Shown: piece after piece, positions 4,708-29,060 of the stretch | Numbering within the stretch: the stretch's first letter is position 1 | Layout of the letters: every line of letters starts with the position of its first letter | Notes under the pieces: model-generated | What the model was told of the DNA's origin: nothing | The model's input: only the letters and a program-made list of their open reading frames with translations | The model's database searches: none | Assembly (NCBI RefSeq): GCF_900177805.1 | Contig: NZ_FXAX01000001.1 | Coordinates: 1,240,001 to 1,304,000, forward strand | DNA from: Fibrobacter sp. UWB13 | GTDB taxonomy: Bacteria; Fibrobacterota; Fibrobacteria; Fibrobacterales; Fibrobacteraceae | Direction of reading: 5' to 3' | Length of the DNA stretch: 64,000 nucleotides | Made by a program: the position numbers and the translations under genes

Positions 4708-4727
4708 CGCAATTTACGCTCCGTAAT

Positions 4728-5471
4728 TTACTCTCCGCGACTCAGTTTTTCTTCCTGTTCGCGGAGCTTTTTGTATCCAGGGCTTTCAAGCGGAAGGATG
4801 GACGAATCGAGTTTCAGGGGCTTGTAGCCTTTATGATCCTTGGGATCGGTGCGAACAGTCAAAGAGAAAACAGGCTCATTTAATGGAATATCAAATTCAT
4901 AAATGGGGCCTTGCAAAGTTTCTCGAATTCGTCCTTGTTCATCTTTCACAGCGAGATAATTTTGTTCTATTCTTTTGTGGTTTCGAACTTGTCCAGACTC
5001 AATAAGAAGGCTATCACCCGCATAGAAAACACGAACATTCTCATCTGTTGTATCCAGCACTATATTTCGTCCAAACACAGCACTCATAACATTTCCCAAA
5101 GTCAAAGGAGTCATTTCATATACGCACTCCGCATCTAAACCTTCATGATTTTGATTAGAATCAAACAATTTTTCACCTAAAAGAACAGACCTTTGCAAGC
5201 AAAAACTGGGATTATAAAGACCATCTTTATTCCTTGATGCTTGACCAAATGAATAAACAAGTGCTTCCTTGTCAATATTCCCAATCATTCTAAGCGAAGA
5301 ACAGACCAATCGCAGCATATTCCATTCCGCATAAACGTCAATTGTTTGTTTTTCAGGAATCAAAAACGGTTCTTCGGAAGAAAGCCGAGAATGAAGCCAT
5401 TCGCCAGAAACAGGCTTATTTGCACATCCGCAAATAAGTAAAATAAACATTAAGGCAATAATTTTTCTCAT
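4728..5471 (-). CDS. hypothetical lipoprotein, last gene of a three-gene operon
   Basis: 247 residues beginning MRKIIALMFILLICGCANK: a signal peptide with lipobox LICGC, so likely a lipid-anchored envelope protein. The body is soluble and shows no motif I recognise. Its ATG overlaps the stop of the upstream gene as ATGA at 5468-5471, indicating translational coupling. AT-rich (roughly 37-40% GC by eye) relative to the neighbouring ung/CDF genes, which could mean recent acquisition. Convergent with the CDF gene, with a 20 bp gap. Confidence 0.75.
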   Translation of the reverse strand: MRKIIALMFILLICGCANKPVSGEWLHSRLSSEEPFLIPEKQTIDVYAEWNMLRLVCSSLRMIGNIDKEALVYSFGQASRNKDGLYNPSFCLQRSVLLGEKLFDSNQNHEGLDAECVYEMTPLTLGNVMSAVFGRNIVLDTTDENVRVFYAGDSLLIESGQVRNHKRIEQNYLAVKDEQGRIRETLQGPIYEFDIPLNEPVFSLTVRTDPKDHKGYKPLKLDSSILPLESPGYKKLREQEEKLSRGE

Positions 5472-6097
5472 TCGCAGCCATCCATATAAACATCAAACGG
5501 ATACTTTTTTAGCATATCATACAAAGGAATCAGCATATCCAACGGTTTCTTTAACACGACACCATTGCTCCGAAAATCATTGAAATAGAAATTTTTGATA
5601 AAAGAGCCTTCTTTTACAAACCCTAAATATTGAATATTTTCTATTTGCGGTAATTCAGGCCAATCTTTCATAACAGATATTTGAGGATACCGTTCAAAAG
5701 TAATTTTTTTCAAAAAAGAAAAAGCGTTCCCATCATCATTAATTCTTTGCAAACATTTACCAATATTTAATCCACGAATTTTCTTTTTTCGTTCATCCAT
5801 ATACTCTTCGGGATTTGTCCAACGAGATTCTTTCATTTTCGGATATTGAAACAATTCTACACCAGATTCATTTATAAAGAAAAGTTTCAGAGATTCCTTT
5901 TGAGATACAAAAAGGTATATTCCATCGCGGTTCCAATTATACAAGGAATCCTTAAAAAACATTTCCATCGAACCTTTTTTTAGTGTTATTTCGCGATTCA
6001 TCATTTTCTTTGGAACTTCATCAAAAGAACTTTGATTTCCCATTGCTGAATTCACTAAAAAGAAAAAAAGAGACACAATAAACTTTATCTTTTTCAT
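5468..6097 (-). CDS. hypothetical exported protein, middle gene of operon
   Basis: About 209 residues from ATG 6097, chosen because it makes an ATGA overlap with the upstream stop and begins with a clean signal peptide (MKKIKFIVSLFFFLVNSAMG). An in-frame GTG at 6109 is the longer alternative. No Cys follows the signal, so it is probably periplasmic or secreted rather than lipidated. Aromatic- and Lys-rich body without recognised domain. Coupled at both ends to the flanking hypothetical genes, so the three proteins probably act together. Confidence 0.72.
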   Translation of the reverse strand: MKKIKFIVSLFFFLVNSAMGNQSSFDEVPKKMMNREITLKKGSMEMFFKDSLYNWNRDGIYLFVSQKESLKLFFINESGVELFQYPKMKESRWTNPEEYMDERKKKIRGLNIGKCLQRINDDGNAFSFLKKITFERYPQISVMKDWPELPQIENIQYLGFVKEGSFIKNFYFNDFRSNGVVLKKPLDMLIPLYDMLKKYPFDVYMDGCE

Positions 6098-6840
6098 AAA
6101 TCCGAGCACCTTATTTCTTTAATTTTGCCTTCATTCGAACGAATGGAGAAATGTTCGGGATTATCCACAAGTTTATCCCACCAGCATTGCGGAAACTCAT
6201 AATTTGCAAACTCACTAAGCAACAGATAAACTTCTCTATAATAATCTAAAATCACAGATTGAGATTCTTTCTTTATTTTCGAAAAGTCGGGAATTGTAAA
6301 GATCTTTTCTTTTCCACTCTGATCAAAAGCCAACACATAAACATCGTCACCACTACCAGCAGACAGTATCTCAGAATAATTTTTACTCAACAATTCAATC
6401 CATTCCCTGAGTTTAGGCTTTAAAGGAAATGCTTTCGCACAAGCATTTCGATATCTTTCGATATGCTGCAAAAAATGCTGTTTCATGCAATTACCGATAC
6501 GAGTAGATAAAGAAGGATCCGCAGAATATTCCGACGGATCTACAGCAAAATAGAGAGAATCTTCTTCAAATGAAAAATATGCATATTTGTAAACAAAGAA
6601 ACCATCTTTTCGATAAGATGTATAAAAGAAAGTTCCTTGATTGCCAATATTCTTTTCTGGGAACAAAGGACTGACAGCATTAGCAACGCTTTTTGAAATA
6701 TCAAAATATTTGTATAATTCGCTAGCGTCATCTCTATACGAAATATTATGCGAAAAAGATTTCTGAACAAACAGAGTGTCATTCGCACATAAACAAGTCA
6801 CTAATACAAGAATCGTTAACAAAGTTACAATTTTCGCCAT
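6094..6840 (-). CDS. hypothetical exported protein, first gene of operon
   Basis: 248 residues, N-terminal MAKIVTLLTILVLVTCLCAND is a signal peptide, possibly with a weak lipobox (TCLCAN). The rest is Tyr/Phe-rich and soluble, with no family I recognise. It is the promoter-proximal gene of the 4728-6840 operon; its upstream region is the AT-rich spacer holding the triple inverted repeat. The operon's three products all carry export signals, pointing to an envelope function, but nothing more specific is supported. Confidence 0.72.
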   Translation of the reverse strand: MAKIVTLLTILVLVTCLCANDTLFVQKSFSHNISYRDDASELYKYFDISKSVANAVSPLFPEKNIGNQGTFFYTSYRKDGFFVYKYAYFSFEEDSLYFAVDPSEYSADPSLSTRIGNCMKQHFLQHIERYRNACAKAFPLKPKLREWIELLSKNYSEILSAGSGDDVYVLAFDQSGKEKIFTIPDFSKIKKESQSVILDYYREVYLLLSEFANYEFPQCWWDKLVDNPEHFSIRSNEGKIKEIRCSDL

Positions 6841-6969
6841 GCATACCTCAAAAAAATTTCATAAAAAATACACAGCAAAAATCAATATAGGTAATTCGAC
6901 TGCAAGCGAAAATAATCATCCTCCAAAATCCAAGTTGAACAAGTAAAAAAAGCAATTTTTGCATTTTTA

Positions 6970-7006
6970 TGCTACCAAAATCAATTTTTAGTCGTGTTTG
7001 GTAGCA
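6970..7006. repeat. inverted repeat, copy 1 of 3
   Basis: Arms TGCTACCAAA (6970-6979) and TTTGGTAGCA (6997-7006), perfect over 10 bp, separated by exactly 17 nt containing a T5 tract. Confidence 0.85.
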
Positions 7007-7055
7007 TATTTTTTTACTTTGTTCTACAAAATATTTAGCTAACAGGCTTACATAA

Positions 7056-7092
7056 TGTTACCAAATCTAATTTTTCACCCCAATTGGCAACA
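7056..7092. repeat. inverted repeat, copy 2 of 3
   Basis: Arms TGTTACCAAA (7056-7065) and ATTGGCAACA (7083-7092), 8 of 10 paired, again with a 17 nt spacer containing T5. Confidence 0.8.
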
Positions 7093-7150
7093 CATTTTCC
7101 ACAAACAATCTCATATTTAACGATTTTTCATTAAGTTTATCTACAATTTA

Positions 7151-7187
7151 TGCTACCAAAAGGGGATTTTTCACACATTTGGTAGCA
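7151..7187. repeat. inverted repeat, copy 3 of 3
   Basis: Arms TGCTACCAAA (7151-7160) and TTTGGTAGCA (7178-7187), identical to copy 1 in both arms and with the same 17 nt spacing. Copy-to-copy offsets are 86 and 95 bp. Confidence 0.85.
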
Positions 7188-7264
7188 AATTTTCACATTT
7201 TTCCGCACCAAACCACCATATTCGCCTCCCCCTCAAAAAAAAACGCTTAAGAAAGCTTTAACCG

Positions 7265-7379
7265 CCGACCACCAAGCAACACCAATGACAAAAAACAACG
7301 ACTAACGACCATTGACCAATGACCAACAACCAAAGACAAAAATTCCCTAGTAACTAGTAACTAATAACTAGTAACTCAT
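7265..7379. repeat. heptamer repeat array
   Basis: Degenerate units of 7 bp in one orientation, such as ACGACCA, TTGACCA, ATGACCA, ACAACCA, then CTAGTAA, CTAGTAA, CTAATAA, CTAGTAA. Lies directly upstream of the DUF4321-gatA start and may be part of its leader or promoter. Confidence 0.75.
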
Positions 7380-7402
7380 TTCCAAAATACTATATTTGCG
7401 GC

Positions 7403-7729
7403 ATGACTCACAAGAACTCATTGGCACGTGTCGTCCTCTTTATTTTTGTCGGCCTCATTTTAGGCGGCATCATGAGCGAAGCTCTCGGAGCTTTGTTTGG
7501 CGAACTCGGAGTCCTCTTGAACGCCGGTGGATACGATAACAGCGTTCACCACATTTTTACTGCGGCTGCCGATTACAGTATCGGTTTTTCTGGCGATACC
7601 CCGCAGCCCGTCGTCATTGATTTGTACCTCGTCAAATTTGCGCTTGGTTTTGGCTTCAAGGTGAATGCCCTAAGTGCAGTTGGCATGGGTTTAGCTCTTT
7701 ACATCATGAAATGGTCCGGAGAAAGATAA
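7403..7729 (+). CDS. DUF4321 family small membrane protein
   Basis: 108 residues with two hydrophobic segments: residues 9-30 (VVLFIFVGLILGGIMSEALG) and about 84-103. The layout, an N-terminal Gly-rich helix, a polar middle and a C-terminal helix, matches the DUF4321 family, whose function is unknown. The TAA stop overlaps the gatA ATG (TAATG at 7727-7731), so gatA is translationally coupled to it. There is no gatC or gatB next to it in this window. Confidence 0.7.
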   Translation: MTHKNSLARVVLFIFVGLILGGIMSEALGALFGELGVLLNAGGYDNSVHHIFTAAADYSIGFSGDTPQPVVIDLYLVKFALGFGFKVNALSAVGMGLALYIMKWSGER

Positions 7730-9147
7730 TGCAGACTATTCAGGAACTTCAGGCTCAACTTGCAAACGGCAGCACCACTGCCGAAAAGCTCGCACAGGCC
7801 TCCCTCGAAAAAATTGAATCTACAAAGAATTTGAACGCCTATATCTCGGTGCTGAACGACCGCGCTCTTGAACGCGCTAAGGAAAGCGACAAGCGCCGCG
7901 CCGAAGGCAAGTCTCTGGGCGCCCTCGATGGCATCCCGGTCGCCGTGAAGGACAACATGTGCTTGAACGGCACCCGCACTACAGCCGCCTCCAAGATTCT
8001 CGATAACTTCGTTGCCCCCTACACTGCAACAGCACTCGAAAAGCTCGAAGCCGCAGGCGCCATCATCGTCGGCAAGACGAACATGGACGAATTCGCCATG
8101 GGTTCCAGCAACGAAACCTCTTACTACGGCCCGGTCAAGAATCCGCTCGACGAATCCCGCGTTCCGGGTGGCTCCTCGGGTGGTTCCGCAGTCGCCGTCG
8201 CCTCTGGCACGGTTCCTTGCGCTCTCGGTTCCGACACGGGTGGATCCATCCGCCAGCCGGCTGCCTGCACGGGTGTCGTCGGTTTAAAGCCGACTTACGG
8301 CCGCGTTTCCCGTTACGGTCTCCTCGCCTACGCAAGCTCTCTTGACCAGATTGGTCCGTTCGGTGCAACCGTTCGTGACTGCGCAACGCTCCTCGGTGCA
8401 ATTTGCGGCATTGACCCGCACGACAACACCACCAGCACTCGCCCGACCGAAGACTTTACCGCAAAGCTCGGCACCGGAGTTAAGGGCAAGGTCATCGGCG
8501 TTCCGAAGGAATACTTTGGCGAAGGCCTCGATGCAGAATGCAAGGCCGCCATCGAAAACATGCTTAAGAAGATGGAAGCCGAAGGCGCCACGATCAAGGA
8601 AGTGAGCCTCCCGCACATCAGCTATGCAGTTTCGAGCTACTACATCATTGCAACGGCAGAAGCAAGCTCCAACCTCAGCCGCTACGACGGCGTGCGTTAC
8701 GGCTACCGCAGTCCCGAAGCTCGTAAGCTCTTCGACCTTTACGCCAAGTCCCGCAGCGAAGGTTTCGGCAAGGAAGTGCAACGCCGCATCCTCCTCGGAA
8801 GCTACGTTCTCTCCGCCGGTTTCTATGACGCTTACTACGTGCAGGCCCAGAAGGTTCGCCGCCTCATTACGGACGACTTCACCGAAGCCTTCAAGACTTG
8901 CGACGTGATTGCAAGCCCGACGATGCCGGGTCTCCCGCTCAAGTGCGGCATGAACGAATCTGATCCTATGGCCGTTTACCTCTCCGACATCTACACCGTT
9001 AGCTTGAACCTCGCCGGTCTCCCGGGCGTGAGCGTTCCGTGCGGTATGGCAGGCGGACTCCCGGTTGGCCTCCAGTGGATTGGCAAGCCGTTCCAGGAAG
9101 CAGACTTGCTCGCAGTCGCCGAAGCAACCGAGCGTTTGAACAAGTAA
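7729..9147 (+). CDS. gatA: Asp-tRNA(Asn)/Glu-tRNA(Gln) amidotransferase subunit A
   Basis: 472 residues from the ATG at 7729 (an in-frame upstream GTG at 7711 lies inside the previous gene and is less likely). Amidase-signature subunit that hydrolyses glutamine and channels ammonia to GatB for transamidation of misacylated tRNA. The Ser-cisSer-Lys triad is visible as Lys74 (IPVAVKDN), Ser149 (VPGGSSGGSA) and Ser173 (GSDTGGSIRQP). The presence of tRNA-dependent amidation fits a genome lacking GlnRS and/or AsnRS. GatB and GatC must be encoded elsewhere. Followed by two hairpins. Confidence 0.95.
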   Translation: MQTIQELQAQLANGSTTAEKLAQASLEKIESTKNLNAYISVLNDRALERAKESDKRRAEGKSLGALDGIPVAVKDNMCLNGTRTTAASKILDNFVAPYTATALEKLEAAGAIIVGKTNMDEFAMGSSNETSYYGPVKNPLDESRVPGGSSGGSAVAVASGTVPCALGSDTGGSIRQPAACTGVVGLKPTYGRVSRYGLLAYASSLDQIGPFGATVRDCATLLGAICGIDPHDNTTSTRPTEDFTAKLGTGVKGKVIGVPKEYFGEGLDAECKAAIENMLKKMEAEGATIKEVSLPHISYAVSSYYIIATAEASSNLSRYDGVRYGYRSPEARKLFDLYAKSRSEGFGKEVQRRILLGSYVLSAGFYDAYYVQAQKVRRLITDDFTEAFKTCDVIASPTMPGLPLKCGMNESDPMAVYLSDIYTVSLNLAGLPGVSVPCGMAGGLPVGLQWIGKPFQEADLLAVAEATERLNK

Positions 9148-19382: not shown

Positions 19383-20288
19383 CTACCTATGCCAGAATTT
19401 GGTGACGGTCTGGTAGCGGGAAATCGGTTTCATTGCAGCGGCAGCCTTTTCCGCCTGTTCCCGAGTCTTGAAAATTCCGAAAACGGAGGCGCCCGAACCA
19501 GACATCAAGGCGACATCAGCCCCGAGTTCAATGAACATCTGCTTCATTTCGGCGACAAGCGGGTGCGTCGGGAATACGGAAATTTCGAAAGCATTGAAAC
19601 ACATTTCGGGATTGACAATCTGCTTAAACGTTTCCGAAGGCGGTTCAGCAATAGGATCTCCACACAACGGAGGATTCATTTTTGATTCCCACGCCGCTTT
19701 GTACTGCTCCCAGCGGTCCGGGCCAGACTTCGGGACTCCGGCATAAGCGTCCTTGGTCGGGACCGCATCAAGCGGAGTTGCGATGAGGAGAGCGGCCCCC
19801 TCCGGGAGTTCGAGCGGTTCCACGAACGTCAAACGCTCGCCAATACCTTCAGCAAAAGCAGTTCCACCACGAACGAGGAACGGCACATCCGCACCAAGAC
19901 GGGCACCGATGGATTCCAAAGTTTCGAACGGGAGGTTCAAGTTCCACAAGTTGTTGAGCAAACGGAGCGTCGCTGCGGCATCAGCACTGCCACCGCCAAG
20001 CCCCGCCCCAAGCGGCATGACCTTCGTGAGATGGATGTCGGCACCAAGAGAGCAATTGGCATATTCCTTGAGCGCTTTCGCAGCCTTGAACACGAGGTCG
20101 GATCCCAGCGGATAGTTCTGCGGTTCGTTATAGGTCAGGTGGATTTCGCCATCTTCGCGGAGCGTCGCTTCAACCGTATCGCCAGCGTCAATCGTCTGGA
20201 AAACAGTTCCAAGATCGTGGTAACCATCTTCGCGCTTGCGGATGACATCTAAAAACAAATTGATTTTTGCAGGAGCGTATTCTTTCAT
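19383..20288 (-). CDS. ispE: 4-diphosphocytidyl-2-C-methyl-D-erythritol kinase
   Basis: About 301 residues from ATG 20288 (MKEYAPAKINLFLDV); a GTG two codons upstream is possible. GHMP kinase of the MEP isoprenoid pathway. ATP loop MPLGAGLGGGSADAAA and substrate motif PAKINLFL are intact, with MSGSGASVFGIF near the C-terminus. It lies 26 bp after the PP2C gene and may be read from the end of the 20.3-29 kb operon, although it is functionally unrelated and probably has its own promoter. Confidence 0.95.
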   Translation of the reverse strand: MKEYAPAKINLFLDVIRKREDGYHDLGTVFQTIDAGDTVEATLREDGEIHLTYNEPQNYPLGSDLVFKAAKALKEYANCSLGADIHLTKVMPLGAGLGGGSADAAATLRLLNNLWNLNLPFETLESIGARLGADVPFLVRGGTAFAEGIGERLTFVEPLELPEGAALLIATPLDAVPTKDAYAGVPKSGPDRWEQYKAAWESKMNPPLCGDPIAEPPSETFKQIVNPEMCFNAFEISVFPTHPLVAEMKQMFIELGADVALMSGSGASVFGIFKTREQAEKAAAAMKPISRYQTVTKFWHR

Positions 20289-20314
20289 GACCACAAACCT
20301 AGCAAAAAAAATTT

Positions 20315-21775
20315 TTAGTCCACCTTAATTACCATCATCGTAAGGTCATCAAAGGGATCTGTTCCTTCAGAGAATACATTCACGTCATCCGAGATTTCCC
20401 TCAAGAATTTTTCACCGCCACGAATTTTGATGGAATTTAATTTTTTCAAAAGTCGTTCTTCACCATAAAGTTCTGCGGAAGCATTGTGAGCTTCAGTAAG
20501 TCCATCCGTATAGAGGAACAAGCAATCTCCGCTTTCAAACTGGATGTCAGTTTCTTTATATTGCGTAGTGTCAAACCCGGCGAGGAACACCCCATGGCGT
20601 TGCCGCAGGAACTCGAACGAGCCGTCTTTTTTGGCAAAGCATACGGCATTATGCCCCGCATTGGTACATTTCATAATCCTGGTGTTAGTATCGAGAATAC
20701 CAATCCAGGCTGTCGCAAACATTTCTTCAGCATTGTTTTCGCACAAAAGGCGATTCACGTCATTAAAAATCTCTGCCGTAGAAAGCTTCATGTATGCATG
20801 GTCACGAATCATCGTTTTAACAACCATCATGAACAAAGCAGCAGGAACACCCTTGCCCGATACATCGGCAATCACAAAGCAAATATGCGAATCATCTATT
20901 TCAAAGAAATCGTAAAAGTCGCCGCCCACTTCTTTTGCCGTGGTCATTGATGCAAAAACATTGAGTTCGGGATGCTTCGAGAACGCATGCACCACCGTAG
21001 GGAGCGCACCCGACTGGATATTTGCGGCCAACTGTAAATCGGACTCCACCGCAGCCATTTTTTCACGGCTTTTTACAAACCTATCCGTATTCACGTTTGT
21101 CGTAAAGAACACAAAACCTATTGCCCAGGAAAGACTCGTCACCACATAATTCTCATCAATTTCAAGGATATAACCCTGCAATAATTGTACCCCCACACCT
21201 ATTACAGCAAATATCAGCAAATTCCTTGCATAAGCAACCTTTTCTTTTTTCTTTTCACGATGCATTATTACGTAATAGATTGCAAGAAAAAACGAAGAAC
21301 CCATATAAAGAAAACATACAGGAGCAAGAAAATATTCAAACAAGTTCATGTACTGAATACTACAACTTTCATCAAGAGAATATATTAAAGCAGTCCATGG
21401 AGTCGAAAGACACAAAAACACGGTAAGAATAGTAGGGGCTACAAAAAGTAGGGCATACATTTTTTTTGAACTTAAAGTCAATTCAAAACGTTCTAGGCTG
21501 AACCACGCAAACATCGATGTAGCAAAAACGAAACTGATCGCAAAAACATAGCCACAGGCATAATTCAACAGCCTAAGTTCAACATTCCCATCGACAAAAT
21601 GCCAAATTCCATCAAAAACCGCAAGTACAATAGACGATATAAGGACAACAGATAGCTTATCCTTCAAGCTTATTTTATACAATACAATATTGTTATACAG
21701 CAAAAACACAAGCAACAGCGTTGAGAATAGAGAGACCTCTACGAACAATGTTTCTGCAATTTCATTATAAAGCAT
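20315..21775 (-). CDS. membrane-bound PP2C/SpoIIE-type serine phosphatase
   Basis: 486 residues. The first ~230 form about six to seven hydrophobic helices, then a short linker leads into an RsbU/SpoIIE-like PP2C phosphatase domain at about 240-486. Metal-binding Asp residues are present: KEVGGDFYDF (Asp286), IADVSGKGVPAAL (Asp304), YTDGLTEA (Asp424) and FDDLTMMVIK (Asp476/477). Such enzymes dephosphorylate STAS antagonists in partner-switch circuits. The STAS gene two genes upstream in the same operon is the obvious substrate. The 1 bp gap to the MATE-ATPase gene implies tight coupling. The membrane part presumably senses a signal, which is not identifiable. Confidence 0.9.
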   Translation of the reverse strand: MLYNEIAETLFVEVSLFSTLLLVFLLYNNIVLYKISLKDKLSVVLISSIVLAVFDGIWHFVDGNVELRLLNYACGYVFAISFVFATSMFAWFSLERFELTLSSKKMYALLFVAPTILTVFLCLSTPWTALIYSLDESCSIQYMNLFEYFLAPVCFLYMGSSFFLAIYYVIMHREKKKEKVAYARNLLIFAVIGVGVQLLQGYILEIDENYVVTSLSWAIGFVFFTTNVNTDRFVKSREKMAAVESDLQLAANIQSGALPTVVHAFSKHPELNVFASMTTAKEVGGDFYDFFEIDDSHICFVIADVSGKGVPAALFMMVVKTMIRDHAYMKLSTAEIFNDVNRLLCENNAEEMFATAWIGILDTNTRIMKCTNAGHNAVCFAKKDGSFEFLRQRHGVFLAGFDTTQYKETDIQFESGDCLFLYTDGLTEAHNASAELYGEERLLKKLNSIKIRGGEKFLREISDDVNVFSEGTDPFDDLTMMVIKVD

Positions 21776-21776
21776 A

Positions 21777-23501
21777 TTAAGCCTCGTATTTAATCCTGAA
21801 TGTATTACGGTTATAGCTCATAGTGGTCAGGTATTTCTTGTTTTCCTTCAATTTCTCCATGTAGCCAGAAACCATAAATTCAATAATCGAACCCGCAATA
21901 ACATCTTCACTGGACAAATCAAACAGAACACCATCATCCTTAGTAATAATCTGCACACCCGTTTCTCGAATAATGACAGTACATTCCGCATAAACGGCTT
22001 TATCCACGCCATTTTTTTCATAAATGAGCATATAAAGGTCTTCTATAAGCAACTTCGCTTTCGAAATGGTTTTCTGTTCAATATTATTTTCTACAAGGAA
22101 TTTTTCTACTTGATGCTGAGTCCCAACAATCGACTCCGGATTTAGTTTAAACTCATAAAATTTATGTTTAAAACCCTTTAACTTTTCCGAAAGCAATAAA
22201 GGGTAATTATCTTTTCCATACCGGAAGCGGATGTACAAGACCGTAATCACGTAGGTCAATGCAGGGCCAATAGCAACTCCGGCAAACATTCCATATATAC
22301 CAAAGAAATACCCCAGAACTACACAGACAGGGGTCACCACAAGTACATCACGGAGAGCACTCATCACAAAACCAAGCTTAATCTTGTCAATGAGCAAATA
22401 GTAAGAACTCAACAGATACAGCAAACTCAAGAACACAAGTCCAAACACTTCGATTCGAACACCAAGAACCGCATAAGAATAAACCGCCGGATCAGAAATA
22501 TCATAAAGTTCAACAATAAAAGGAGCAACAAAAATCATCAACAACGTCAAAGCCAGGCCTTCAACAACAGCGGTTTTCAAAGAAAGGTTATAACATTTTT
22601 TGACAGCATCATAAGATTCTTCGCCTAGATAGATATTCATTAACGGAGTAAACGCCTCCCCTACGCCATCAAACACAATTTGAATCTCTTTAACAAAAAG
22701 GATAACGGCTCCAAGTACAAGCATTTCGGGACCATAGGCGAAGGTGATAAAACGGTTCATTGCAGCGGTGAAACAAGCCAAAAAGAGATATGTACCCGCA
22801 TCAATTGCACTATACTTCACGACATCGACAAGCCATTTGAACGAAAAATAAAAACCCAATTTCAAGGAATTGCCTTTACGAAGAAGATGCGCAAAAGCAA
22901 CAAGTAACGCAACCAAAGTTCCAATAAACGATCCAAACCCAATTCCCTCAATACCTACAAATTTTGCAAGAACAATCGAGCAGACGATGTTTCCGACAAT
23001 CTGAACAATCCCTGAAACCATCGACAAAGTTTCATCGCCGTCGGCAAGGACCATTTCGTCCATTAACGTCATAATAGGCAACAACAAGATTGTGTACTTA
23101 TACCAAAAGAAATAATCCTTTGCCGCATTGAAAACGCTTGTAGAAGGCTCATAGAAACGAAGATAGGCATCCCCAAACAGCATAAAAACGGTATACAGGA
23201 TTAATCCCATCACCACAGCCATAAAGAGTCCAAACGCAAAACAACGATCCGCCTTTTCCTTATTAAACTCCCCCATGGCCCGATTATAGAGGATTGGAAT
23301 CCCCAAAGCAACCACACAAGCACCAAAGCCAGCCAAAGAATAGGCGGGGACAACAAGGCAAATGGCCATAACGGCATCTTCGCCAAGCATCACACCCGCA
23401 ATCACCGAATCCGAAAGAGCAAGTACCGAAATAACGAGAATGCTAATCGAACTCGATAGTAAGAGGGAAAAGAATTTTCTTGAAAGGAATGTCTTGAACA
23501 T
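21777..23501 (-). CDS. MATE-family transporter fused to an RsbW-like ATPase domain
   Basis: 574 residues. Residues 1 to ~435 are a MATE-type transporter with about 12 hydrophobic segments (for example SISILVISVLALSDSVIAG and the second half beginning near 225). Residues ~450-574 (FKLNPESIVGTQHQVEKFL, KAKLLIEDLYMLIYE, IITKDDGVLFDLS) resemble the GHKL fold of anti-sigma kinases. The N-box Asn position reads Met in IEDLYM, and the G1 region is DDG, so kinase activity is doubtful. It sits between a STAS and a PP2C gene, which suggests the ATPase domain is the switch partner and that transport is regulated by it. Substrate probably the product of the upstream biosynthetic genes (inference). Confidence 0.82.
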   Translation of the reverse strand: MFKTFLSRKFFSLLLSSSISILVISVLALSDSVIAGVMLGEDAVMAICLVVPAYSLAGFGACVVALGIPILYNRAMGEFNKEKADRCFAFGLFMAVVMGLILYTVFMLFGDAYLRFYEPSTSVFNAAKDYFFWYKYTILLLPIMTLMDEMVLADGDETLSMVSGIVQIVGNIVCSIVLAKFVGIEGIGFGSFIGTLVALLVAFAHLLRKGNSLKLGFYFSFKWLVDVVKYSAIDAGTYLFLACFTAAMNRFITFAYGPEMLVLGAVILFVKEIQIVFDGVGEAFTPLMNIYLGEESYDAVKKCYNLSLKTAVVEGLALTLLMIFVAPFIVELYDISDPAVYSYAVLGVRIEVFGLVFLSLLYLLSSYYLLIDKIKLGFVMSALRDVLVVTPVCVVLGYFFGIYGMFAGVAIGPALTYVITVLYIRFRYGKDNYPLLLSEKLKGFKHKFYEFKLNPESIVGTQHQVEKFLVENNIEQKTISKAKLLIEDLYMLIYEKNGVDKAVYAECTVIIRETGVQIITKDDGVLFDLSSEDVIAGSIIEFMVSGYMEKLKENKKYLTTMSYNRNTFRIKYEA

Positions 23502-23509
23502 AGAAGTCG

Positions 23510-23809
23510 CTACAAAATTCCGAACGCAACATCCAATCCGGTTGCTTCGAGAACTTCCTTAAAATTGGGGCCCACATTTTCAAGTCGCATATCGCCCTGG
23601 TTCTTTTTTAACGTCTTAAACGAAGAGAGCAGCACGCGGATCCCTGCCGACGAAACAAAATCACATTCCTTAAAGTCAAAAACAAGGGATTTTATCTTTT
23701 CAAGATGCGGAGCGAGGAATGTCGAAAGCTGTGGAGCCGTCATTGCATTCAGCTCCCCCGAAAGTTCCACCGTCAATTCTTCACCATTCAAATTAGACTT
23801 AATTTCCAT
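23510..23809 (-). CDS. STAS-domain anti-sigma-factor-antagonist-like protein
   Basis: 99 residues, a stand-alone STAS domain of SpoIIAA/RsbV type. The conserved segment DFVSSAGIRVLLSSF (50-64) contains the usual phosphorylated Ser, likely Ser54. ATG preceded by AAGGAG. In partner-switch systems a STAS protein is phosphorylated by a GHKL kinase and dephosphorylated by a PP2C enzyme; both domain types are encoded by the next two genes downstream (gaps 8 and 1 bp). No sigma factor is present, so the output is likely the fused transporter itself or something encoded elsewhere. Confidence 0.92.
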   Translation of the reverse strand: MEIKSNLNGEELTVELSGELNAMTAPQLSTFLAPHLEKIKSLVFDFKECDFVSSAGIRVLLSSFKTLKKNQGDMRLENVGPNFKEVLEATGLDVAFGIL

Positions 23810-23833
23810 ATAGACTCCTTACTCTCTCAAAAG

Positions 23834-26782
23834 TTATATTTTTTGCCATTGTTTTTTTACTTCCCCAATCGTAAGCCCGGCATTTTCTTCTATTTGTAAA
23901 ATCATCTGGCAGCAAAAGACAAATACTTTCGAAAAAGTCGCGATACTTTCTCTCTTGTATTTTCCGCCGTCGTAGTCAAAAGAAACTTCGGTTTTTCCAT
24001 CATCTACCTTAACCTCGATGTCCATGATGCTTTCTGCAGCCCTATCCGAATTTTCAATCCATTTGGCAGAAGTGAAAAAGCCGTGGGTGTTCGGAACGTA
24101 CATTTCACCCTGAAAAATAAAGCAGATTTTATTTTCATCTGGCAGAACCCTCTTTTGGGACATGTCATTTGCACTGGAAAGGGATTGTAAAATTTTATTT
24201 TTGCAAGTTATAAGAGCGTCAAGAACGGGGGTACTTTGAGGAAGTTCCAGCGCAATAAAACATTCCTTCAAGAAATAACCAATGGTATCTGCATATTTTG
24301 CAGAATCTCTACCATTCCAAATCCAGTCAAAAGCAACTTGTTCACAGTCATTGTAAAGGGCAAGGGAAAGAGCCGTGGCAAAAAGATAAAACTCGTTCTG
24401 GCTGACGGAATGCGAGAAACAAAAATCTCTTATTTTTTTTGTACAAGGGATTGCTATTTCTTGACAAGCGGCCTTATCTTCTTTTTCAAAATCATGCTTT
24501 GGCGCACAATAACAGATTTTGCCATTTGATAAAGTGAGTGTGGAATTTTGGTTTGCAGTCAATGAAAGCAGGGATGTATCTTTTTCGGCTGCGAAGATTT
24601 CTTTTATAAACTCATTGTAGCAGTCTTTTGTAAGAACTTCGCCTCGATAAGCCTTTTCTATATCGGAAAGGAAAATATGCAGGGAAAGTCCGTCTACAAT
24701 AGCGTGATGAACTTCTAAAAGAAGAACAAGCCGTTTTTCTGTTCTGATGATGCGGCATCTGAAAAGTGGGCTTCCATCAAGAGGGAAGATTTCTCCAAAG
24801 TTTTCGACGATAGCGTCAAGTTCTTTTTCTGACATAGCCTCTACGCTTATTGCATCGTCAATATTCTGTTTTTGATACTGCACATAGCCTTGTTCCCTGT
24901 CCTTTTCAATCACGGTGCGTAAGGCCGGGTGCGCCTCAATCACTTTTTTCAGAGCTTGATAGAGTTTTTTTTCGTCAAGATCCGAACGTAAAGTCAAATA
25001 CAAGGGAACATTGTCTACGATGGTGTCTGGGAGACAAGCTTCATAATCAAGCACCTCCTTTTGAGAAAGGATAAGGGGGAGTTTTTCTTCTGGAGTCTCT
25101 TTTGCTGTGGCTGGGGAACTTAAAGATATCTTCTTATCTAGCACTTCGGCAAGAGCACGGACAGTACGTTTTTCATAAATAAGCGGCACGGTCAACTTTA
25201 ACTCCTCACAAGCAAGCATAAGCTCCATGGCACTTACGCTGTCGCCTCCCATTAAAAAGAAGTCATCGTCAATGCCGATTTTTTCAATTTCCTCAAAGTC
25301 TTCAAGGGCTTCCTTGAATGCATCGCAGAGTATTTTTTCACATTCTGTCCGAGGTGCAACATATGTATTTTGAGAAACAAAATTAGGGATGAGTAGATTT
25401 TTCCTGTCGATTTTTCCGTTTGTATTCAGGGGAATCTTTTTCATCTGCACAAAAAATGAGGGGATCATATAGGCGGGGAGCAAGGGCTTTAGCGAGGCGC
25501 GGATGGTTTCCACAGGAATAGAGTATTCTTTCTGATAATAGGCGCAGAGATAATATTTTCCCTTTTTTTCAAAGGCTTTTACAGCAACCATTTTTGTTTC
25601 CAGAACTTTTTTCAGTACTGTCTCTACTTCGGCTGGTTCCACCCGGTTTCCGTTAATCTTTACCATATCGTCTGCCCGACCCAGCACATACAGAAGTCCG
25701 TCTTCTCCGCGGCGGGCAACGTCCCTCGTGCAGAAGAACTTTTTCCCGCCAATCGAGACAAAAGCCTTCTCTGTCTCTTCCTTTTGGTTCAGGTAGCCGC
25801 GGAAATAAGGCAGATACAGACAGATTTCCCCTTCTTTTTCCGAAACTTTACCGTCATCGAGCAAAAGCATATCCGTGTATGTACAGCCTTTCCCAATGGG
25901 TGTGTTGGGATAGGATTTGTCGAGTTTAAAAAGACAGGCCGTAGACATAAGTTCCGTATTGCAATAAAGATTCAATATGTCAAAGGACTTTGAGAAAACA
26001 TTGCTTACCCGCTCGGAAGAAAGGGCAATTGCTTTAAGCGAGAGATTTGGTGCTTCTGAAAATGTATTTACGAGAGATGCTGTTAAAAACATGATTTCAA
26101 TTCTATTTTTGACCAGATACTGCATGTAAAGCGCAGGATTTTTCAGCAGGGGTTCTGAAACAAGGCAGACTGTTCCTTGAAAATACAGCACACTAAATGA
26201 GATAATATTGAAGGCGGAAAAAGTTACCGGTGCCACATTTGCAAATCGTAAATCATCATCTTCTTTATGGTACGGTGAGAGTACAGGCAATGCAGTTCCT
26301 GTAGTGATAAATCTATACGCACCATATTCTTCTACAACTCCCTTCGGCGTTCCGGTGCTTCCGGATGTATAGATGACGAAGGCAAGATCGTGCTCGTCAG
26401 AATCCGCCCAAGCTTCAGTGCTGAGAGGCTCGGCTTCCATAGCTTTTTCCAATGTGTCCGCATCAAAAACAAGTTTTGCACCAGAATCTTTTAATACATG
26501 CTCAATTCTTTCCTGCCCCATGCTGTCAGAAAGCGGCACATAGGCAATTCCCGCTTTCATCACGCCTAATTCCACGGCAATATATTCCATGGATTTTTCA
26601 AGATGTATGACAATCAAGTCTTCTTTTTGAAAACCTTTGCTTTTTAAGAAAGCTGCTACACGGCTTGAAAGTTCATCAAGTTTTTTGTATGTAGTGCTGC
26701 GATCACCGTCTTTATCTAAAACAGCTACACGTTCAGGGTAAGCAGCAACGGTTTCTTTAAATTTCTGCAAATAATCAATCAT
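23834..26782 (-). CDS. NRPS-like protein, adenylation-carrier-condensation (A-T-C)
   Basis: 982 residues. Adenylation domain 1-470: A3 VIYTSGSTGTPKGVV (136-150), A5 NTEL (275-278), A7/A8 LGRADDMVKINGNRVEP (367-383), A10 NTNGKIDRK (453-461). Carrier domain about 475-550 with phosphopantetheine Ser515 in DDDFFLMGGDSVSA. Condensation domain 565-982 with HHAIVDG at 692-698. The A4 position where alpha-amino acid activators have Asp reads TFSAF, so the substrate may not be a standard alpha-amino acid (tentative). No thioesterase; release is probably by the terminal C domain onto an amine or alcohol acceptor. Single-module architecture, neighbours supply candidate substrates. Confidence 0.9.
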   Translation of the reverse strand: MIDYLQKFKETVAAYPERVAVLDKDGDRSTTYKKLDELSSRVAAFLKSKGFQKEDLIVIHLEKSMEYIAVELGVMKAGIAYVPLSDSMGQERIEHVLKDSGAKLVFDADTLEKAMEAEPLSTEAWADSDEHDLAFVIYTSGSTGTPKGVVEEYGAYRFITTGTALPVLSPYHKEDDDLRFANVAPVTFSAFNIISFSVLYFQGTVCLVSEPLLKNPALYMQYLVKNRIEIMFLTASLVNTFSEAPNLSLKAIALSSERVSNVFSKSFDILNLYCNTELMSTACLFKLDKSYPNTPIGKGCTYTDMLLLDDGKVSEKEGEICLYLPYFRGYLNQKEETEKAFVSIGGKKFFCTRDVARRGEDGLLYVLGRADDMVKINGNRVEPAEVETVLKKVLETKMVAVKAFEKKGKYYLCAYYQKEYSIPVETIRASLKPLLPAYMIPSFFVQMKKIPLNTNGKIDRKNLLIPNFVSQNTYVAPRTECEKILCDAFKEALEDFEEIEKIGIDDDFFLMGGDSVSAMELMLACEELKLTVPLIYEKRTVRALAEVLDKKISLSSPATAKETPEEKLPLILSQKEVLDYEACLPDTIVDNVPLYLTLRSDLDEKKLYQALKKVIEAHPALRTVIEKDREQGYVQYQKQNIDDAISVEAMSEKELDAIVENFGEIFPLDGSPLFRCRIIRTEKRLVLLLEVHHAIVDGLSLHIFLSDIEKAYRGEVLTKDCYNEFIKEIFAAEKDTSLLSLTANQNSTLTLSNGKICYCAPKHDFEKEDKAACQEIAIPCTKKIRDFCFSHSVSQNEFYLFATALSLALYNDCEQVAFDWIWNGRDSAKYADTIGYFLKECFIALELPQSTPVLDALITCKNKILQSLSSANDMSQKRVLPDENKICFIFQGEMYVPNTHGFFTSAKWIENSDRAAESIMDIEVKVDDGKTEVSFDYDGGKYKRESIATFSKVFVFCCQMILQIEENAGLTIGEVKKQWQKI

Positions 26783-26797
26783 ATTTATGCCCCCTGA

Positions 26798-27925
26798 TTA
26801 CTTCTCGGTATTTTTTATGTATTCAAGGACAGCCTTCAGCCCGTTTTCAATATCATTGCTATTTAAAAGCATATTTATTCGAAAACAAAAACACTTTTCT
26901 GGGTCAAAGCCCTGCAAAATGCCGGGATAGACAAAATAGCCTTTTTCCTTCATCAGGCGTTTCATCGCCTCTACAAAGGATGCATCGTCTACAGCGCAAC
27001 GGATAAAAATCATGGCATAGTGGCCAAAGGTTTCCGGCGAGATTCGGGCAAAATCATAGTTTTTTACAATGTTTTTCACCTTCAGAATGTTATCCTGCCA
27101 AAAGGCTGTGTAAACATCCCGGCAGTCGTCGAAATTCTTTGAAACAAAATGTCTTGCTCCTTCCTGGCAGGAATAGCACAAGGAGCCTCCGTAGATATCT
27201 TCAAGGTTGTTGATGTCATCATAGTATTTTGTATGACACACAACGTAAGAGAATTTTATTCCTTGGAGTCCCAAAGCCTTATGAGGGCTATAAATGTAGA
27301 GGAGATTTTCCTGAACTCCAAAAACTCTTGAAAGTTCATATCCGTTTACGCATAGGGATTCATCTAAGATGACTATTTTACCTGCATCCAGGAGTTTTTG
27401 AATTCCTTTTGTAACGCGCTCCTTAAAATAAATGCTGCAAGAGTTGACCGGAGACGTAAACCAAAATGCAGTACAGTCAGACTGTAGGAGTTCTTCTACA
27501 TCAAAAGTACTGTTTATGTTTTCCATGTAATCGCTAAAAAGGCGATAAGGTATGCCAATGTCATCAACGCAACTTTGTACAGAAAAATAAACCGGCTCTA
27601 CAATCCCCACCTTTTGATTATGCTTTTTTAAGAATATAGCGAGCGTTACGATAGAAAGGGTGCTTTGAGATACAGGCGCAAAAAAAGAATTTTCATAAGC
27701 TTCATCAGAAAATCCCAATTTATGGGCAAGGTCTTTTTTTATGCAGTCAGGAAAGAAATACTGATAATCAAACAAGTCAGACTTTTTACCAAGCTTTACA
27801 ACTGATGCAAGCTTTTCCTTATAGTCAGAACCAGAATTCCAGTCGGAAAGATTTACCGGCGGATTTTCTTTTGGTAATGCTTCTAAAGCAGCTTCCAATT
27901 CCATTTCAATTTCATAATCAGTCAT
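26798..27925 (-). CDS. fold-type I PLP-dependent enzyme (aminotransferase class I/II-like)
   Basis: 375 residues. Class I/II aminotransferase fold: VEPVYFSVQSCVDDIGI, FTSPVNSCS (~156-164, equivalent to the substrate/PLP Asn motif), VILDESLCVNG with Asp188, and Schiff-base Lys216 in YSPHKALGLQGIKFS. The N-terminus (first ~75 residues) is shorter and more acidic than in typical aspartate aminotransferases, and sequence is well diverged, so it may be an aminotransferase, a C-S lyase or a decarboxylase. ATG overlaps the preceding decarboxylase-like gene by 8 bp and the NRPS-like gene starts 15 bp after it, so all three are one transcript. Confidence 0.82.
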   Translation of the reverse strand: MTDYEIEMELEAALEALPKENPPVNLSDWNSGSDYKEKLASVVKLGKKSDLFDYQYFFPDCIKKDLAHKLGFSDEAYENSFFAPVSQSTLSIVTLAIFLKKHNQKVGIVEPVYFSVQSCVDDIGIPYRLFSDYMENINSTFDVEELLQSDCTAFWFTSPVNSCSIYFKERVTKGIQKLLDAGKIVILDESLCVNGYELSRVFGVQENLLYIYSPHKALGLQGIKFSYVVCHTKYYDDINNLEDIYGGSLCYSCQEGARHFVSKNFDDCRDVYTAFWQDNILKVKNIVKNYDFARISPETFGHYAMIFIRCAVDDASFVEAMKRLMKEKGYFVYPGILQGFDPEKCFCFRINMLLNSNDIENGLKAVLEYIKNTEK

Positions 27926-29060
27926 AGAGAGCCTCGTAGTTCATGTAATCGAAGGATTTTATCTGCTGGAATCCGTTTTTTTCGCTGTAAAAACAGATAT
28001 CAGGATAATTGATGCCGTTGAAATAATTCATCTGTGCAAAGGAATAAGAACCCATGTCACCAAAGACGATTTTGTCACCCGGCTTTAAGGGGGCAGAAAA
28101 AGAGTACTCGCCAAATACATCGCCAGAAAGACAGCTGTTTCCTGCAAGCAGATAGGAATAGCCCTTTTCCCCGGCCTGTGGATAAATTACGGGCAGCTGA
28201 TAGTAATTTTTAAGGACATCCAAGGCATGGCACGAAATAGAACTGTCCAAAATGGCGATGTCCTTTCCATTATGCACCACGTCCAAAACAGTGGTCAGAA
28301 GAAAGCCCGCATCCATCACCAAATACTCGCAGGGTTCAATGTGGGTTTTTAAGTGATACTTTGAATGCAGGATGTCCAGATTTTCGGCGAAGTCAGCAAA
28401 ATCAAAATCGTCTTCGAGAAGAGCCTGTCCTCCTCCAAGATTTATCCAAGATACAGAAGGAAGGTAGTCAGAAAATTTATCCAGAACGGCAGAAATCAAA
28501 TTGTTAAAATCTTTTGAGGAAGATCCGCACAAGGCGTGAATGTGAAAACCAGAAATTTTGTCAAAAAAGCGACCATCTACAGCCGAAAGCATTTCTTTTG
28601 TAAGGCCAAAACGGGAATACGGGGCGCATGGATTGTAAACCGGTTCTTCTACGATAGAAACCTCGGGATTCAAGCGGAGGGCAAATTCGTTTTTAGCAGT
28701 AGCGACGTGACTAAAGACCTCTTGCTGATGAGGTGAGTTTAAGACAATGTGAGAGCAATGGGCTGCAATTTCTTCCGCATCTTCTTTTTTGTACGCCGGG
28801 GTATGGACATGAACTTCTTTTCCGAGCTTTGACCCCAACTTTGCCTCAAAAAGCCCAGACGCGGAAACTCCGTCAACATAGGGTTTGATAAAGGGGAACG
28901 ATTTTGCAAAGGGAAAACCTTTCATGGCTAGCAAAAGAGAAAGGCCTGTTTGATCTGCTTTTGCCCGTATGTTCCGGAAATTTTCGGCAAGTACATCAGT
29001 GTTAACGATGTAGCAAGGGGTTGAAAGCTCCTCAATAAAACTGTTCTGATAAAAACACAT
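27918..29060 (-). CDS. carboxynorspermidine-decarboxylase-like fold-III PLP enzyme (NspC paralogue)
   Basis: About 380 residues from ATG 29060; a GTG at 29072 is also possible. Alanine-racemase-fold decarboxylase. Lys in LLAMKGFPFAKSFP is the PLP Lys; GFHIHALCGSS, WINLGGGQAL, HIEPCEYLV, and AGNSCLSGDVFGEYSF (catalytic Cys) match the nspC-type protein at 45083 almost block for block, but overall identity is low. It is therefore a paralogue recruited to the NRPS-like operon, probably decarboxylating an amino-acid-like or amine-containing acid to an amine. First gene of the six-gene operon. EPCE replaces EPGE of the canonical copy, so substrate may differ. Confidence 0.85.
   Translation of the reverse strand: MCFYQNSFIEELSTPCYIVNTDVLAENFRNIRAKADQTGLSLLLAMKGFPFAKSFPFIKPYVDGVSASGLFEAKLGSKLGKEVHVHTPAYKKEDAEEIAAHCSHIVLNSPHQQEVFSHVATAKNEFALRLNPEVSIVEEPVYNPCAPYSRFGLTKEMLSAVDGRFFDKISGFHIHALCGSSSKDFNNLISAVLDKFSDYLPSVSWINLGGGQALLEDDFDFADFAENLDILHSKYHLKTHIEPCEYLVMDAGFLLTTVLDVVHNGKDIAILDSSISCHALDVLKNYYQLPVIYPQAGEKGYSYLLAGNSCLSGDVFGEYSFSAPLKPGDKIVFGDMGSYSFAQMNYFNGINYPDICFYSEKNGFQQIKSFDYMNYEALYD

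Follow-up and report, generated by a model that had tools for sequence, protein, structure and literature searches.

Three inverted repeats of like geometry lie close together in the window, the 64,000 nucleotides of Fibrobacter sp. UWB13 DNA analysed here, and raise the question whether they are a chance duplication or a site under selection and, in the latter case, whether they act as DNA or as RNA. The repeats, each of 37 bp (10-nt arm, 17-nt spacer, 10-nt arm) with starts at 6970, 7056 and 7151, were recovered where the original prediction had placed them (6970-7006, 7056-7092 and 7151-7187), with start-to-start offsets of 86 and 95 bp, and the gap that holds them, between the ORF at 6094-6840 on the minus strand and that at 7403-7729 on the plus strand, is indeed free of genes. 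The exact copies are those at 6970-7006 and 7151-7187, for which shuffles gave a chance expectation of 0 matches. The two mismatches reported for the middle copy hold for it as a palindrome, but compared to the other copies it shows four differences. The triple inverted repeat is one copy of an element without earlier description that occurs at two dozen or more intergenic Fibrobacter sites.

The three repeats form one single element of about 255 bp (6949-7203, plus strand), which matched end to end a 258-position nhmmer profile with 163 bits. This profile was built from 28 elements, the triplets of alignment A1, which extends over about 300 columns and also defined the conserved parts outside the repeats. 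All on the plus strand, these parts comprise a left end with consensus TTTTTGCGATTTTA (6954-6969; divergence 0.135 versus 0.225 outside), inverted repeat 1 (6970-7006, TGCTACCAAA-N17-TTTGGTAGCA) followed by a conserved AT-rich motif 3' of it (7007-7024, consensus TATTTTTTACTTTGTTC), the partly decayed inverted repeat 2 (7056-7092, TGTTACCAAA-N17-ATTGGCAACA), a conserved AT-rich motif 5' of repeat 3 (7127-7150, consensus TTAATTTATNTAAAAATTA), inverted repeat 3 (7151-7187, TGCTACCAAA-N17-TTTGGTAGCA) and a right end with consensus TTTTTTCGCAATTT (7188-7203). The outer ends are approximately inverted copies of one another, with TTTTTGCGATTTTA on the left and TATTTTCGCA on the right.

The exact arm pair occurs in the UWB13 genome only at the window locus, and a narrow exact-arm search alone would have made the window element seem a local oddity. 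When bacterial genomes were scanned for the exact arms, 36 stretches came up, nearly all from Fibrobacter; the matches in Uhrbacteria, Bdellovibrio, Amycolatopsis and Sporosarcina were single hits without a triplet. With relaxed arm patterns, for which reversed-pattern controls were almost empty, most of 80 Fibrobacter genomes gave zero repeats, and the richest gave up to 62 (G038), 45 (G074) and 36 (G006). The family is limited to one clade of the genus. The close relatives G014 and G050 were essentially free of elements, and no triplet came up in 400 kb of the distant Fibrobacter G033 searched de novo. A second subfamily has arms TGCTAC[T/A]AAA and a spacer of 16, and eight such copies in the UWB13 genome account for 24 repeats of this type, as compared to 20 in G045, 20 in G052 and nine in G001. 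The window element is therefore one of nine in its own genome and the sole member of subfamily 1 there. Absence elsewhere and lack of conservation would have spoken for chance duplication; instead, the triplet was dispersed in other Fibrobacter, with eight variant triplets in the same genome. A literature search found no published description of the element, and the main text of the S85 genome paper mentions no such repeat.

The arrangement of the repeats is rigid. A profile search of the fetched regions allowed us to align about 90 copies from about 25 loci, with about 1 to 20 copies per genome, nearly always as triplets and in the constant order of 85 then 95 bp. Among the 58 complete copies, the spacer was 17 nt in 165 of 174 repeats and the offsets were 85 bp in 45 copies and 95 bp in 49, values of 84-86 and 94-96 covering nearly all. 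The AT-rich blocks flanking repeats 1 and 3 were conserved, and in one group repeat 2 was lost in three species whereas repeats 1 and 3 stayed intact. Identical repeat spacers were seen at L040 (G035 C1) and L108 (G006 C126), though the G035 genome is otherwise distant; the L040 contig, 3 kb with the repeats at its end, is probably misbinned in the G035 assembly.

In 91 orthologous pairs, divergence was 0.077 for the arms, 0.178 for the spacers and 0.225 for the flanking intergenic DNA outside. The arms were the less divergent in 82 of these pairs, at about half the spacer rate, copies at orthologous loci not being independent of one another. This slower divergence supports the selection on the arms that the original prediction had assumed.

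The two subfamilies replaced one another in place. Both CCAAA/N17 and C[T/A]AAA/N16 elements were present within five orthogroups, in one of which a single L017 copy may be mis-typed, and at the miaB locus genomes seemingly without an element, UWB13 included, hold a subfamily-2 ortholog. Since these five orthologous loci hold both subfamilies, half-site and spacer length appear to have changed together at several dispersed loci, which is the signature of sites that track a trans-acting factor. Such joint switching between sister lineages would offer a direct route to the cognate protein, which should have altered its DNA-binding surface on the branches where the sites switched.

At the window locus itself, the left flank of the element is 99.5-100% identical to G068 and the stretch was therefore probably acquired recently from a subfamily-1 lineage. 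The three-ORF operon on the left, for which no Pfam match was found, occupies 2.2 kb of inserted DNA (about 4712-6907) that separates the element from a gene for a CDF transporter; its part near the element shows the same identity to G068, and it too probably represents a recent horizontal transfer. In G074 the CDF gene is directly followed by the orthologous element and the insertion is missing; G045, G001, G004, G014 and G050 have neither operon nor element at this locus. The operon had been proposed as target or partner of the repeats, a role left without support by its being a separate insertion, missing beside the G074 ortholog, and by the ordinary genes that flank other copies. Just upstream of the DUF4321 gene, window positions 7280-7380 contain degenerate short tandem repeats (GACTAACGACCATTGACCAATGACC..., CTAGTAACTAATAACTAGTAAC), and those at the same place differ in other species (e.g. 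GACGAGAGACGAGAGA in G001). Farther along, at 20001-28000, the GC content falls to about 0.41 and the skew is disturbed, possibly reflecting an acquired island.

All copies examined lay within, or at the edge of, intergenic DNA between transcription units. Gaps between convergent genes were enriched (37 of 90 copies versus a background of about 21%) and tandem gaps depleted, and the flanking genes, among them those for release factor 3 (RF3), purL, miaB, trmO, Fe-ADH, lysS, fmt, an ABC-2 transporter and FISUMP-domain proteins, are unrelated. On these grounds a regulon was rejected.

The elements show one predominant polarity relative to replication. GC skew of the flanks, taken in element direction, was negative at 22 of 25 loci (P=1.6e-4), the pattern that polar sites mirrored on both arms would give; the other three loci were inverted, one such group lying about 220 kb from the terminus. 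All nine UWB13 elements have one polarity. Along its 2.34-Mb contig C1, sampled GC skew was positive to 0.55 Mb, about 0 between 0.60 and 0.66 Mb and negative over the rest, with elements on the minus strand to the left of this single flip (0.6-0.7 Mb) and on the plus strand to its right. G068 and G045 have the same mirror pattern of skew and strand. Provided that the leading strand is the G-rich one, this skew pattern is that of a terminus. In support of this assignment, the G-rich strand holds three rRNA operons, with all three 16S genes seen, and the ribosomal protein L2 gene (rplB); it is also T-rich and carries 56% of the long ORFs. Against this assignment, four of six tRNA clusters are on the C-rich strand. 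Genes with a DnaA domain were found about 0.1-0.3 Mb away from the flip in skew and not at the presumed origin; two were present in each of the eight genomes checked, and those at G000 C1:749876 and C1:952387 are nearer the presumed terminus than the presumed origin.

Together with loci on the contigs above, fifteen other loci were positioned on the UWB13, G068 and G045 genomes by their flanking fragments, assuming that the G045 contigs C1 and C2 adjoin at the terminus. The arms measure about 1.8-1.9 Mb, and 21 of 23 placed loci were no farther than about 1 Mb from the terminus as defined by the skew, on both sides of it as a fork trap would require, these positions resting on sampled GC skew; one locus was about 1.4 Mb away. 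The bias was significant (KS P 0.0009-0.0045). L133, near an rRNA operon, could not be placed, and when it was counted as origin-proximal the preference for the terminus half gave P=0.011. No usable canonical dif site came up when the fetched sequence was scanned. Were the flip the origin, the polarity would not be affected, but the preference would turn towards the origin and the fork-trap reading would fall.

Since the copies recur between genes, have one replication polarity and fall mostly in the terminus half, the element is probably a docking site for a chromosome-organising or fork-stopping protein. The rigid multi-dyad geometry, the polarity mirrored on the arms, the terminus bias and the co-switching of the subfamilies, all computed along with the family itself and the arm constraint, together suggest a polar complex of protein and DNA in the terminus half, from which we infer the binding of a protein, its multimerisation and the function of the complex. 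In this model, a putative sequence-specific protein would dock on double-stranded DNA at six half-sites TGNTACCAAA, read toward the dyad centres, that make up three dyads. Spaced at near-integral helical phase (85 and 95 bp), the dyads could bring several dimers into one asymmetric nucleoprotein complex, which would most likely serve the terminus domain of the chromosome in a polar way, in mirrored orientation on the two arms. Such a complex might either stop forks leaving the terminus, as in Tus-ter or RTP-ter, or orient a segregation or nucleoid-organising machine. We favour a polar protein-binding element of the terminus half with moderate confidence because of the orientation exceptions and because no binding protein was found in the gene neighbourhoods and element-bearing promoters examined: no DNA-binding gene was recognised beside the elements and, though Tus and RTP are autoregulated, no element within the promoter of a gene for a DNA-binding protein came up as a candidate. 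A fork trap in particular, suggested by analogy, is a less likely version of this reading, and a strong fork trap should not tolerate the inverted group close to the terminus.

The alternative that most needs to be excluded is a replication-coupled mobile element. A non-autonomous (MITE-like) element or its remnant could owe its orientation and terminus bias to insertion coupled to lagging-strand synthesis, as is known for TnsE-directed Tn7 and single-strand transposons, and its arm conservation to recent common ancestry or to former transposase binding. Dispersed and multi-copy occurrence in one clade only would fit this explanation, as would copies clustering at some loci, and several copies were duplicated in tandem neighbourhoods, hinting at past mobility. 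The window element, moreover, looks horizontally acquired in a genome whose other eight copies belong to subfamily 2, and relatives lack it at this locus. Large insertions were over-represented at the element junction, with 43 of 108 events versus about 1/9 expected, a count uncorrected for junction type or relatedness. However, most copies occupy orthologous loci in several species, and their subfamilies switch in place there. No clear jump of a single copy with a short target duplication was seen; presence and absence between genomes at the window locus came without a clean target duplication. The arms, finally, remained slower than the spacers after divergence, and most element-rich genomes lack the Y1 transposase family. 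A RAYT/REP system was rejected, the REP-associated Y1 transposase being absent in G038, G006, G070, G027 and G045. Overall, we regard a mobile element as unlikely, though as deserving serious attention.

Less probable still is a role in site-specific recombination or in the attachment of gene cassettes, after the manner of res, attI or integron sites, in which crossover would take place at one repeat and the others would be accessory. Phased multiple dyads do resemble resolvase res sites, and genes were often gained or lost beside the element. At L225 (G006 C55, oriented 5200-7980), a 2.7-kb three-gene segment lies inside repeat 3 of a subfamily-2 element, the right half-site remaining beside miaB at its far end, as a recombination site would allow. 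Precise cassette boundaries were, however, lacking: the junctions were not exact, the one in the window falling about 60 bp to the left of repeat 1 and those elsewhere varying. No cassette was found in two contexts and the flanking genes are mostly housekeeping. A crossover in the spacer of repeat 1 as cassette boundary, considered from the comparison of the window with G068, was dropped, the repeat-1 type elsewhere not tracking the extra gene. A search for tyrosine recombinases gave only genus-wide ones and none specific to element-bearing genomes, and a clade-specific one as partner was rejected. In G006 only, a XerC/D-like recombinase gene adjoins an element (L104, G006 C55:48291-48803); its probable UWB13 counterpart is about 90 kb from the nearest element.

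Three small hairpin RNAs, which the original prediction had offered beside protein-binding sites, or a terminator or regulator acting as RNA, would be expected to maintain pairing between the arms, which was often broken by single changes. On the strand shown, C:A and A:C mismatches numbered 77 versus 34 for the G-U-compatible T:G and G:T. Arm position 3 is free, and it correlated between repeats (1R-2L, 1R-3L) as strongly as within one repeat, relatedness inflating all these correlations; compensatory stem changes beyond shared ancestry were thus not apparent. In repeat 2, the left arm favours C at this position and the right arm T, so that the pair is broken. The pattern would fit a half-site preference common to the six arms rather than base pairing. 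Both the single changes that break pairing and the equal correlations between and within repeats favour double-stranded protein half-sites over a hairpin RNA, and the protein-binding alternative is supported by them and by the arm constraint. Although 10-bp inverted arms would pair into a hairpin around an unpaired spacer and pairing at positions 3 and 7 exceeded that of shuffles, an RNA is very improbable given these changes, the lack of a constant relation to the direction of neighbouring genes and an Rfam search of the element that gave chance-level matches only, with no family near its cut-off.

The polar protein-binding element favoured here shares features with several known systems. REP/BIME sequences are likewise extragenic palindromes in lineage-specific subfamilies, but they differ in geometry and in their association with RAYT-type transposases. 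The res sites of the Tn3 type also have three phased dyads, whereas the Fibrobacter dyads are equal in length and farther apart, have no adjacent recombinase and occur in copies genome-wide. MatS sites are palindromic protein sites of the terminus region, each a single short palindrome without polarity, which the present element is not; the function of MatP is treated in PMC6549158. AIMS/KOPS are strand-biased and rise toward the terminus (PMC5993296), as the elements do, but are abundant leading-strand 8-mers in contrast to a 255-bp composite in few copies per genome.

Only two fork-trap systems have been described; they are unrelated and limited to few clades, neither Tus nor RTP being found outside gamma-proteobacteria and Bacillales, and RTP only in a subgroup of the latter (PMC6549158). 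Why fork traps exist is debated. Tus-ter of E. coli resembles the element in that its polar sites are limited in number and scattered over a broad region on the terminus side of the chromosome, but its ter is non-palindromic (PMC6549158) and bound by a Tus monomer (PMC10331603), and the Fibrobacter elements have their three orientation exceptions. RTP-ter of Bacillus likewise has several polar sites flanking the terminus in mirrored orientation, and each of its ter sites consists of sub-sites that take up more than one protein dimer (PMC10331603); there, however, the sub-sites are two and adjacent, compared to three separate 37-bp dyads over 217 bp in Fibrobacter. It is conceivable, if doubtful, that the element is a composite ter site at which three dimers stop forks leaving the Fibrobacter terminus, with a terminator protein unrelated to Tus and RTP that changed its specificity between lineages, and hence a third, independently evolved bacterial fork trap. 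Maintained in a distant phylum, a multi-dyad element that is polar and on the terminus side would be either such a third fork trap or a chromosome-organising site of a new kind.
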